Positions 22,490 to 42,956 of a stretch of DNA of 48,621 bases are shown one piece after another. The first letter of the stretch is position 1. Every line of letters begins with the position of its first letter. Made by a program: the position numbers and the translations under genes. Below the pieces are notes generated by a model. The model had not been told where the DNA came from. It saw nothing but the letters and a program-made list of their open reading frames with translations, and ran no database searches. Source of the stretch: a virus. Location of the stretch: positions 1 to 48,621 of the IMG/VR virus record IMGVR_UViG_3300021405_000020. One strand, given 5' to 3'.

Positions 22490-22532
22490 CAGATCGGTTG
22501 GCCGGAGTCCCGGTCCCGATGCCTAAAGAGGG

Positions 22533-22638
22533 CCCCCATGGGGGAGGGTCCAGCGCGGCGTCAATAGGCGCCTGGCGTCGACCCTCCTATTGACGCCGGC
22601 TCGAGCTCGTTCTGGGTCGACTAGGTTATTTGCAATAA
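22533..22638. repeat. Nest of inverted repeats between divergent operons
   Basis: CCCCCATGGGGG (22533-22544) is a palindrome. GGAGGGTC (22543) pairs with GACCCTCC (22580-22587). GGCGTCAATAGG (22557) pairs perfectly with CCTATTGACGCC (22586-22597). TTATT-TGC-AATAA follows at 22626. The second and third repeats interlock. No gene is seen in 22448-22811. Likely roles are operator cluster, replication origin or packaging site. Confidence 0.75.
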
Positions 22639-22746
22639 TCTGGTCGATCATTCTAAGTCATTGATATTGCTGCACATATACGCAAAGTCCGGAATATGCG
22701 GACCTACAACGGACCCTACAGGCGCAATTTGTTTAGGACTACGAAG

Positions 22747-22775
22747 TTGACAATTGCTCGAGCTGCGCCTATGTT
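22747..22775 (+). promoter_or_regulatory. Strong sigma70-type early promoter
   Basis: A consensus TTGACA is followed after exactly 17 bases by TATGTT. The predicted start is near 22782, giving a leader of about 30 bases to the ATG at 22812. The element TAGGACTACGAAG just upstream recurs before the promoter at 24223. It probably drives the first early genes. Confidence 0.8.
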
Positions 22776-22811
22776 GATCGTGCGCGATGGTCGCGCTCGG
22801 AGAATGCCCAC

Positions 22812-23012
22812 ATGTCCCACAATCAAGCTGCAATGATCGAAGCCCACAAAGCCGGCCGCACGCTGGCCCGCAACGGCGAAAGCCGTGCCTACGTCAATGA
22901 CGTGGCGCGTACGTTGCCAGTCGACGAAGCCGATGCGCTCTTGGCTGGCTATTATCGCGGCCTACGCGAGAAGGCCTATGCGCAAGCGACAAACTGCCTC
23001 CACAAGGCCTAA
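22812..23012 (+). CDS. Small early protein, paralogue of 26188-26358
   Basis: 66 aa behind the strongest promoter in the window and followed by a terminator, so it forms its own transcription unit. GGAGA lies eight bases before the ATG. The core LPVDEADALLAGYYRGLRE is shared with LPVREGDAFLAGYYAELRR in the gene at 26188. It is short, helical and has no known domain. An early single-gene unit suggests a host-takeover peptide, which is an inference. Confidence 0.8.
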   Translation: MSHNQAAMIEAHKAGRTLARNGESRAYVNDVARTLPVDEADALLAGYYRGLREKAYAQATNCLHKA

Positions 23013-23038
23013 AACATCCTTGCGATAAACCAAAATAG

Positions 23039-23065
23039 CCCCGCCTTCGTGCGGGGTTTATTTTT
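23039..23065 (+). terminator. Intrinsic terminator
   Basis: CCCCGC-CTTCGT-GCGGGG followed by TTTATTTTT, 26 bases after the stop of the 66-aa early gene. Confidence 0.9.
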
Positions 23066-23125
23066 GCCTCGATCGAGCTCGGCGCGGCGCTCAATGCAAG
23101 GTTTGCCTCCGAGCGGAAGCGAGGA

Positions 23126-25396: not shown

Positions 25397-25531
25397 ATGA
25401 TGAAAATTCGAATCGTTTACAATCGCTTGCTTGGCGGATGGTTCATTGTCCGCGGCCCGCATCAAACGCCGCTTGGCGGCCGCTTCGCCACTAAGGCCAA
25501 AGCGCAAGCCCATCTGGAGGCGCGCCGATGA
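25397..25531 (+). CDS. 44-aa conserved-looking small protein
   Basis: MMKIRIVYNRLLGGWFIV, RGPHQTPLGGRF then ATKAKAQAHLEARR. It begins two bases after the previous stop and overlaps the next start (ATGA), so it fits the tight gene string. WFIVRGPHQTPLGGRF followed by a KA-A-HL helix resembles many tiny alphaproteobacterial phage proteins; the function is unknown. Confidence 0.7.
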   Translation: MMKIRIVYNRLLGGWFIVRGPHQTPLGGRFATKAKAQAHLEARR

Positions 25532-26100
25532 AAGACCATCGCGTCAAAGGCGTTGAAGCCGCAAGCCTCCACGATTCGTACACCTATTATTTTGGACCTA
25601 GAAAAATGTGGAAACCAATTGCGGGGTTTGAAGGCCTTTATGAAGTCTCAGATCAGGGCGAAGTACGTAACAAACGATTTAACCGCCCTGTGGTCACCTT
25701 TGTTGATCAGCGCGGTTATCAATGCGTCACGCTTTCCTCTGGAAAACTCAGAGCGCGGCGCAAGGTTCATCGTCTCGTTCTAGAGGCTTTTGTCGGTCCA
25801 TGCCCCGAAGGAATGGTGACGCGCCACTATCCTGATCGGGATCAAACAAACAATCGTCTCGCCAACCTATCGTGGGCCACTGAAACCGTGAATCAGCAAG
25901 ATCGCGTAGAGCACGGAACGCACATGCGAGGCGAGCGCAACAATAAAACCATTCTCACGGAAGAACAAGCGCGCGAAATTCTTGCAATCAAAAACTGGCC
26001 GCGCGGTTCGATTGTCGCAAAAGCTCAAGAATACAGAATCTCGCCCAGCGCAATTAGCAACCTTATCAGAGGCAAAAGCTGGGCGTGGTTACGCAACTAG
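25528..26100 (+). CDS. NUMOD4-HNH homing endonuclease
   Basis: 190 aa. Residues 27-70 are a NUMOD4 unit (MWKPIAGFEGLYEVSDQGEVRN), 80-125 an HNH core (KVHRLVLEAFVGPCPEG, HYPDRDQTNNRLANLSWAT), and 150-190 a helix-turn-helix (REILAIKNWPRGSI, ISPSAISNLIRGKSWAWL). The first 26 residues, before the natural NUMOD4 start, may be the 5' remnant of a small gene it invaded. Lower GC than its neighbours supports recent arrival. Confidence 0.9.
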   Translation: MKDHRVKGVEAASLHDSYTYYFGPRKMWKPIAGFEGLYEVSDQGEVRNKRFNRPVVTFVDQRGYQCVTLSSGKLRARRKVHRLVLEAFVGPCPEGMVTRHYPDRDQTNNRLANLSWATETVNQQDRVEHGTHMRGERNNKTILTEEQAREILAIKNWPRGSIVAKAQEYRISPSAISNLIRGKSWAWLRN

Positions 26101-26170
26101 AAAGGAGGTGATGCAGCCTCTGCCGGCGATGGCGCACCCTCGCAGCGCCGGCAGCGACGGTATCATCACC
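26099..26170 (+). promoter_or_regulatory. Leader with 16S rRNA 3'-end complement and stem-loops
   Basis: AGAAAGGAGGTGATGCAGCC (26099-26118) is complementary to the last 20 nt of 16S rRNA with one mismatch. GGTGATG (26107-26113) can pair with CATCACC (26164-26170), enclosing TGCCGGCG/CGCCGGCA (26121-26128 and 26146-26153). The fold would mask part of the ribosome-binding stretch. It precedes the gene at 26188. A 45-codon frame also starts at 26111, only two bases after GGAGG, and is probably not a main product. Confidence 0.7.
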
Positions 26171-26187
26171 GAAAAAGAGAAAACAAA

Positions 26188-26358
26188 ATGCCACACAAAA
26201 ACCAGGCCTACACCGAAGCTTTTCGCGACGGTATGCGAGCCGCGCTAACCCTCACACGGGAGCACGTCAACGCCTATGCGCGCAAATTGCCCGTGCGCGA
26301 GGGCGATGCTTTCCTTGCCGGCTATTATGCCGAATTGCGCCGTTTGAGGGCGGCATGA
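26188..26358 (+). CDS. 56-aa protein, paralogue of 22812-23012
   Basis: The core LPVREGDAFLAGYYAELRR matches LPVDEADALLAGYYRGLRE of the first early gene, so this is a real gene despite its size. The N-terminus MPHKNQAYTEAFRDGMRAAL also aligns loosely with MSHNQAAMIEAHKAGRTLA. It has only a weak AAGAGA site of its own, so the structured leader upstream may control it. The stop overlaps the next ATG. Confidence 0.75.
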   Translation: MPHKNQAYTEAFRDGMRAALTLTREHVNAYARKLPVREGDAFLAGYYAELRRLRAA

Positions 26359-41547: not shown

Positions 41548-42956
41548 GCAAGCTCGACCCGGTCCAGATCGCCGCGCTCGACTTCGCCCGCGACAAGCCG
41601 GGCGTCGGCTGGTTCCTACAGCAGGGGCTGGGCAAGACACTGTGCGCGCTGACCGAATACTCGTGGTATCAAGGCCTCGGTCAGGCTGACCAAATGATCG
41701 TCGTCACCCCTAATACTTTCAAGCAGGGCTGGATCGACGAGATCGAGAAGCATGGTTTCAGCTTCAACGCCCATGTCTTTCGCTCCTCAAAAAAAGAGGA
41801 GGCGCAATGGTTTCTTAGCCGCCAGGGCCATAATTCGCCGCCGATCCTGATCATCAACTACGAGGCGATCCGAATGCCGGCGGTCTTGACCCGGATCGTC
41901 AAGTGGGCGGCGATCGGCAAGACATATCTGGCGATCGACGAATCGATTCAGATCAAAGGGCACCGATCCCAGCAAACCAAAGCGATTCATCGCCTGGCGG
42001 CAGTCTGCCGCTGGAAGCGATTGCTGACCGGCCGCCCGCAAACCCAAGGCCCGCATGATCTTTGGGGGCAACTCAGAGCCATCGACCTGTTCACTGATCG
42101 CAACTTCTACGCCTTCCGCGGCGCCTTCTGCGTCATGGGCGGTTGGCAGAACAAGGAGGTGATCCGGGAGAAGAACGCCAACGTGCTCGCCCGCATCATG
42201 GCCCCGGCGGTGTTCCAGGCCAAGAAGGCGGATTGGCTTCCGGATTTGCCGCGCAAGGATCCAACCATCCGCGATTATCAGATGTCGACCGAACAGCTGC
42301 GCCAATACAATCAGATGGAGCACCAGTTCCTAGTCGAGATCGAACGCGGGGTCGTCACAGTCGACGTCGCGATCGCTAAATACGAAAAGCTGGCTCAGAT
42401 CCAAACAGGGTTCGTCTATGACGCATTCGGTGAGGTCCACGAGCTCGTACACCCGAGCGAGAATCCCCGGCTCAAACTGCTCCATCAACTCCTCGACGAG
42501 GAGGTCGAGGGCAAGGTCTGCGTCGTCTACCGTCATCGGCCGGTTTTCGATCTCCTGTTCAAGGCGCTGAAGGACTACAATCCAGCCTGGATCCGGGGCC
42601 GGATGAACCCGGAGGACGTCGAAGAGCAGAAGTTCAGATTCAACAACGACCCCCGCTGCCGGATCATCCTGCTGCAGGCCGAAGCCAGTAAGTATGGCCA
42701 CACCCTGCTTGGCGACGTCAATGTCGAGGAGGACAAGTGCCGCACCATGATCTTCTTCGAAAACAGCTACTCGGCCGACACTCGCGACCAGGTCGAAGAC
42801 CGGATTCACCGCCGCGGCCAGACGGGCGAGTACGTTTCGTACATTGACCTTTCTGGCTCGGCGCTCGACCGTCGCATCGTCAAGGCGCTGCAGCGCAAAG
42901 AGCGACTGTATCAGAGCGTATTCAAGAACCTCAAAGCCACGGCGCCGGCGGCATGA
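41544..42956 (+). CDS. SNF2-type superfamily 2 helicase/translocase
   Basis: 470 aa. Motif I QQGLGKT (26-32), Ia VTPNTFKQGW, motif II in AIDESIQIKG (DES instead of DEAH), motif III LTGRPQTQG, motif V region LLQAEASKYGHTL and motif VI RDQVEDRIHRRGQT are all present. Such phage proteins probably move on double-stranded DNA in recombination-driven replication or displace host proteins. The nuclease at 38958 is a likely partner. Confidence 0.9.
   Translation: MSKLDPVQIAALDFARDKPGVGWFLQQGLGKTLCALTEYSWYQGLGQADQMIVVTPNTFKQGWIDEIEKHGFSFNAHVFRSSKKEEAQWFLSRQGHNSPPILIINYEAIRMPAVLTRIVKWAAIGKTYLAIDESIQIKGHRSQQTKAIHRLAAVCRWKRLLTGRPQTQGPHDLWGQLRAIDLFTDRNFYAFRGAFCVMGGWQNKEVIREKNANVLARIMAPAVFQAKKADWLPDLPRKDPTIRDYQMSTEQLRQYNQMEHQFLVEIERGVVTVDVAIAKYEKLAQIQTGFVYDAFGEVHELVHPSENPRLKLLHQLLDEEVEGKVCVVYRHRPVFDLLFKALKDYNPAWIRGRMNPEDVEEQKFRFNNDPRCRIILLQAEASKYGHTLLGDVNVEEDKCRTMIFFENSYSADTRDQVEDRIHRRGQTGEYVSYIDLSGSALDRRIVKALQRKERLYQSVFKNLKATAPAA

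Follow-up and report, generated by a model that had tools for sequence, protein, structure and literature searches.

The 20-nt complement of the 16S rRNA 3' end at 26099-26118 is the 5' edge of a structured RNA element of about 75 nt. The element covers 26096-26173 on the + strand (model positions 1-78) of the window, by which we mean the whole 48,621-nt stretch analysed, a linear IMG/VR virus record. Eight copies (the window, L086, L130, L088, L137, L087, L144 and L148) are all the copies known, and every one stems from metagenomes. The hairpin that has the 20-mer as its 5' arm was overlooked in the first-pass annotation. We tentatively suggest, at slightly less than even chances, that the element acts as an intercistronic, structured leader with dual Shine-Dalgarno (SD) sequences, which might load ribosomes for translation by standby or re-initiation.

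Results

The match to the 16S rRNA 3' end

The sequence AGAAAGGAGGTGATGCAGCC at 26099-26118 on the + strand is complementary to the alphaproteobacterial 16S rRNA 3' end at 19 of 20 positions, a C-to-G change being the sole mismatch. A duplex-energy scan of both strands ranked this site as the best partner of the 16S tail in the window, with -36.4 kcal/mol compared to a window mean of -9.9 (sd 3.2) and a runner-up of -28.9 kcal/mol. The long complementarity reported previously is thus borne out as the strongest tail match present. The 20-mer is unique in the window with up to three mismatches allowed, had no counterpart in 100 dinucleotide shuffles and, as an exact sequence, did not recur among the viral contigs searched. 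The runner-up site (42150-42169; AAGGAGGTGATCC, 13 nt) lies inside the coding sequence of an SNF2-like helicase and is probably a chance match.

The alphaproteobacterial tail is a sensible reference because, among cultured phages, Ochrobactrum phage OH and Sinorhizobium phage phiM5 have the most similar portal proteins. The same protein similarity makes an alphaproteobacterial host of the window phage likely. The reference tail GGCTGGATCACCTCCTTTCT was confirmed by a 40-nt 16S terminus ending in GGCTGGATCACCTCCTTTCT, found in 217 plasmid records that are mostly from Alphaproteobacteria among those listed. As a further check on the 16S end, the 20-mer was present in 7 of 58 genomes of the searched class. 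The record of Ochrobactrum phage OH (L157, 16531-18696) includes a gene with the annotation 2-aminooxy adenylosuccinate synthetase and another with the annotation dATP triphosphohydrolase, a pair suggestive of 2-aminoadenine (Z) DNA in that phage.

Relatives retain an extended SD of 8-14 contiguous nt in seven of the eight copies. The stretch measures 12-14 nt in the window, L086, L088, L137 and L144, 10 nt in L130 and 8 nt in L148, where it is longer if G-U pairs are allowed. The core in L087 is interrupted by an inserted C (AAAGGcAGGUGAU), and a perfect SD is therefore not essential. The window core AAAGGAGGTGAT (26101-26112), which belongs to the best duplex with the 16S tail, is kept among relatives in alignment A5. 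The CAGCC extension completing the 20-nt match (26114-26118) is variable in the same alignment and probably arose by chance. Its counterparts read CGGUU, CCUUC, CCCUU, CCUUU, CAAUC, CAGCG and CAGUU, and past the first C only 9 of 28 positions match, which is about the chance level. Since these last letters vary in this way, the 20-nt length is best explained by a conserved pairing core with a lucky extension. Selection for ribosome pairing beyond an ordinary SD, in line with the first-pass annotation, is supported for the extended SD and unsupported for the full 20 nt. Relatives retain AAAGGAGGUGAU(G)C, which is less than the whole match but more than the bare GGAGG named there as the contrary outcome, and they retain the hairpin in addition. 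The element SD is the strongest partner of the 16S tail in seven of the eight fetched stretches.

Architecture and copies of the element

The 20-mer makes up one side, the 5' arm, of a pair of inverted repeats, and in the minimum free energy (MFE) fold the window forms a stable hairpin there, spanning 26107-26170 (z -3.7). The covariance model matches the window element with 85.6 bits, a score that holds by construction because the window sequence is a member of the model; the independent fold z was -3.7 and -3.3 in two runs. The sequence AAAGGA is unpaired and lies 5' of a basal helix. The 5' strand of this helix, GGUGAUG (26107-26113), includes the 3' half of the SD as well as an AUG, and pairs with CAUCACC (26164-26170), an anti-SD-like sequence within the same molecule. 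An internal loop separates the basal helix from an upper helix composed of CUGCCGGCG (26120-26128) and CGCCGGCAG (26146-26154), which is defined by the inverted repeat and by covariation. The apical loop AUGGCGCACCCUCGCAG (26129-26145) has a consensus of about UUGGNNCACCCGAA across copies in alignment A5. No intrinsic terminator (a GC-rich hairpin followed by a U run) was found, and no promoter-like site between 25900 and 26300.

Copies were retrieved with degenerate patterns and covariance models among uncultured phage contigs, and the searched records hold one element place per genome record. L086 was reached via a relative of the neighboring GP88 gene, and carries the element without the HNH gene and with another downstream gene. 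Scores under the first covariance model range from 39.8 to 85.6 bits (n=8); L087, L144 and L148 were left out when this model was built, and L148 was fetched by a pattern derived from the element. Folded singly, all eight copies produce a common architecture of single-stranded AAAGGA, basal helix with the SD 3' half, internal loop, upper helix and apical loop, with fold z from -2.6 to -5.0. The upper helix spans 9-11 bp. In L148, it is of wholly different sequence (GUUUCGAGCGC/GCGCUCGAAAC), and the apical loop is almost unchanged. In L144, both basal strands are replaced (GGUGC/GCGCC) and the AUG is lost.

The upper helix contains 8 double-change cells compared to a shuffled mean of 1.8, and none of 500 shuffles matched the score. 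Pairing extends to 98.1% of helix cells and falls to about 20% if the partner is slid by one column, in an alignment that was fitted to the structure and hence leans towards it. Read on the + strand, the helix contains five G-U pairs and no A-C pairs, which favors this strand, the strand of the operon, on the basis of few cells. The same pairs, equally few, speak against a minus-strand mimic of the 16S 3' end (a hairpin followed by CACCUCCUUU). A folded DNA site resembling integron attC was considered and set aside without a formal test.

Searches beyond the eight copies were negative. The element was absent from 80 loci of HNH-gene relatives and from the L001-L005 and L089-L093 loci, which carry relatives of the GP88 or the 56-aa gene. 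The whole records of L001-L005, L090, L092 and L093 had no convincing match, and the whole record of L089 does contain a copy, the one listed as L144. Pattern matches in the genome contigs L151-L153 scored at chance level. No match was found in 289 genomes of the class of Sphingomonas G017 (taken as Alphaproteobacteria), under strict filters and with no positive control. Nor is the element present in three phages whose portal proteins are among the closest, two of them being Ochrobactrum phage OH and Sinorhizobium phage phiM5. BLAST searches, with one copy run against phages and one against plasmids, returned nothing convincing. Rfam provided no match at the gathering threshold, rRNA families included, and the weak matches were at chance level (e.g., preQ1-II with 19.1 vs 47 bits). 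As a family of structured RNA that Rfam lacks, the element offers a way into the post-transcriptional control of uncultured phages, the hosts of which are probably Alphaproteobacteria.

A fixed locus with exchanged neighbors

The upstream gene in the window (25528-26100, + strand) encodes a NUMOD4/HNH endonuclease-like protein (Pfam HNH_3 8e-11, NUMOD4 3e-10), and its TAG stop directly precedes AAAGGAGG. In six of the eight copies, 0-3 nt separate the upstream stop from the purine-rich SD that follows; in L086, the two overlap. L087 is the exception, with the element about 43 nt after the stop and an ATCGGCG/CGCCGAT inverted repeat in the gap (L087 7926-7975). Downstream, a weak SD-like AAAGAG (26174-26179, + strand) precedes a gene of 56 aa (MPHKNQAYTEAF...; 26188-26358, + strand), which has no Pfam match and has relatives on five viral contigs without the element. 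Most downstream genes in the other copies are preceded by an SD of their own, such as AGGAG in L088, L144 and L148. The downstream start falls at +90 to +102 from the element start, which is near-constant across copies.

The genes on both sides are exchanged around the fixed element, which indicates that the element belongs to the locus rather than to a gene. Immediate upstream genes are unrelated across copies, with the window and L086 sharing only the N-terminal 26 aa. Downstream genes are mostly unrelated, with one common to L130 and L087, and homologues of some flanking genes sit across the element, or further off, in other genomes.

The 26-aa stretch (KGVEAASLH...YFG) is common to the NUMOD4/HNH gene and to the gene that occupies this position in L086 and lacks HNH. 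By this sequence comparison, it looks as if the endonuclease had taken the place of the remainder of that gene as far as the RNA element, with L086 resembling an empty site. A frame at 22737-23009 matches relatives (L001, L003) of the 56-aa gene, suggesting two paralogues in the window. The region 22510-23125 separates opposed gene blocks and contains short blocks 87-91% identical to L086 with unalignable stretches between them; it is possibly a promoter or a replication control region.

Discussion

A putative ribosome-loading leader

The AUG at 26111 lies only 2 nt after GGAGG and the next gene starts at 26188, which does not fit an ordinary ribosome binding site with a start about 5-9 nt after the SD. 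We infer that the element is transcribed, binds ribosomes, transfers them and affects translation. It would act in cis within the 5' leader of a gene in an early operon, with the 20-mer as the edge where ribosomes dock. A 30S subunit, either free or left from the gene ending upstream, would pair its anti-SD with AAAGGAGGUGAU. Such pairing would open the short basal helix hiding GGUGAU and leave the upper hairpin intact. The subunit might then be held at the SD, as standby or capture, because no well-spaced conserved start codon follows. It would finally move beyond the hairpin and reach the start of the downstream gene, about 75-80 nt further on, usually via a second SD.

As to an accessible single-stranded docking surface beside the structure, the first six SD bases have mean unpaired probabilities of 0.28-0.79 across copies and the next five of 0.00-0.36. 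Opening the SD costs about 3-11 kcal/mol, and its duplex with the 16S tail yields -23 to -36 kcal/mol; docking with an intact upper hairpin is therefore energetically feasible. Structured standby sites acting at a distance are established (PMC3936740, PMC7708055). Since the element persists while unrelated genes are swapped on both sides, it would serve as a loading or coupling site that is independent of the gene. The standby role proposed by the first-pass annotation for the gene at 26188 might thus survive in its general form, as the leading interpretation.

Several points count against the loading leader. Most downstream genes own an SD, which puts the need for a docking site in question, and compact phage genomes place stop codons near any next feature anyway. 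The conservation of the apical loop is also beyond what ribosome loading explains, and suggests a protein or RNA partner.

Such a partner is central to the strongest alternative, which we consider unlikely. The element could be an operator, in which a phage or host protein on the apical and internal loops locks the basal helix, hides the SD and lowers or times expression of the downstream operon. Retention of a loop of about UUGGNNCACCCGAA on top of a fully changed helix is typical where a protein binds or a tertiary contact forms, the MFE folds show GGUG(AU) as paired, and SD-sequestering hairpins are known together with repressors in T4 (PMC3014915). However, no regulator candidate was identified, and the mostly unrelated downstream genes do not fit ordinary autoregulation of a single gene.

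An mRNA stabilizer is a rather improbable explanation. A 30S subunit parked on the start-less extended SD, together with the hairpin, would shield downstream mRNA from 5'-end-dependent decay, as proposed for STAB-SD sequences. The element SD matches the STAB-SD consensus, which we take to be GAAAGGAGG. Known cases are near mRNA 5' ends in Firmicutes, whereas the element lies within an operon with no promoter-like site nearby, and a STAB-SD needs no conserved loop. A strong SD without an initiation codon does stabilize Bacillus mRNAs (PMC3997798), and a gene-independent element fixed to its locus would suit such a role.

The AUG at 26111 (GGUGAUG) might instead open a short leader ORF, the translation of which controls the next gene. 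We regard this as improbable, even though an AUG or GUG occurs at or beside the site in all eight copies and the frame enters the downstream gene in L088 and L087 or, in L148, ends overlapping the downstream start. The gap from GGAGG to the AUG is just 2 nt, and ORF lengths vary from 11 codons up with scattered ends. Across copies, no frame survives the helix-matched indels, whose lengths are not multiples of three, and L148 reads the apical loop in another frame than L088 and L144 do. A conserved peptide is therefore unsupported, and the same indels led us to reject a conserved protein encoded in the GGDA frame (KGGDAxPA...).

Exchange of the flanking genes could also reflect a DNA-level linker, i.e., a conserved boundary at which homologous recombination swaps accessory genes without any RNA function. 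The mostly unrelated flanking genes, the shuffling of small genes and the abutting HNH gene would be expected from such a linker. A linker would retain primary sequence, though, and the helix instead changes in sequence with pairing kept, while the purine-rich ribosome-pairing motif is retained. This explanation has little probability in our view. Despite the 19/20 complementarity, a captured antisense 16S rRNA fragment or a ribosome-titrating decoy, both raised by the first-pass annotation, is largely refuted and very improbable, as the 16S sequence stops at the 20-mer with a variable extension, the opposite strand departs from the 16S terminus beyond GGCTG, no Rfam rRNA family matches, and the element has a fold and loop of its own, with covariation, at one site per genome within an operon.

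A more far-reaching version of the loading leader is that it represents an undescribed class of phage cis-regulatory RNA, which we consider doubtful. The extended SD would take ribosomes finishing any upstream gene, and the conserved hairpin, perhaps bound by a factor, would deliver them to whichever gene has been swapped in, making the element a gene-independent module for ribosome capture and hand-over. If the loading leader as such is correct, phages would possess a natural module that lets them exchange operon genes while the incoming gene stays translated. The element would also provide a natural test case for the action of extended SDs without start codons.

Comparison with known systems

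The SAS and extended SAS (ESAS) of Cluster K mycobacteriophages likewise combine an extended SD with an adjacent inverted repeat and a variable spacer; they precede varied genes within the half of the genome that holds the non-structural genes, and upstream stops may fall inside the element (PMC3203893). Each genome contains 11-19 SAS, which directly adjoin start codons; their inverted repeat precedes the SD, and there is little evidence that it forms a hairpin in the mRNA (PMC3203893). In contrast, the present element occurs once per genome, and its SD lies upstream of a hairpin supported by covariation, about 80 nt from the start. The split ribosome binding sites of T4 genes 25 and 38 share the intercistronic order of SD, hairpin and start codon, with the hairpin shortening the SD-to-AUG spacing to 5-11 nt (PMC3014915). 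In the window, by comparison, about 17 nt are left between the basal helix and the start codon (26171-26187), and a second SD is present in most copies.

The standby sites of tisB and of synthetic 5' UTRs also place docking far upstream, beside a structure (PMC7708055, PMC3936740). The tisB standby site consists of a single-stranded region and a pseudoknot binding 30S and S1, and the real ribosome binding site is sequestered (PMC7708055). Docking at the present element would differ in proceeding via a very strong SD. STAB-SD sequences are located near the mRNA 5' ends of Firmicutes and are not known to include a conserved hairpin. As far as they are relayed by a later account, Bacillus STAB-SD leaders likewise have an extended SD and no usable start codon (Agaisse and Lereclus 1996, cited in PMC3997798). 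Standby sites and STAB-SD might serve as functional analogies. SAS/ESAS and the T4 split ribosome binding sites are the nearest described phage elements, and the element has the defining features of neither; we would class it as a structured leader that carries an extended SD.
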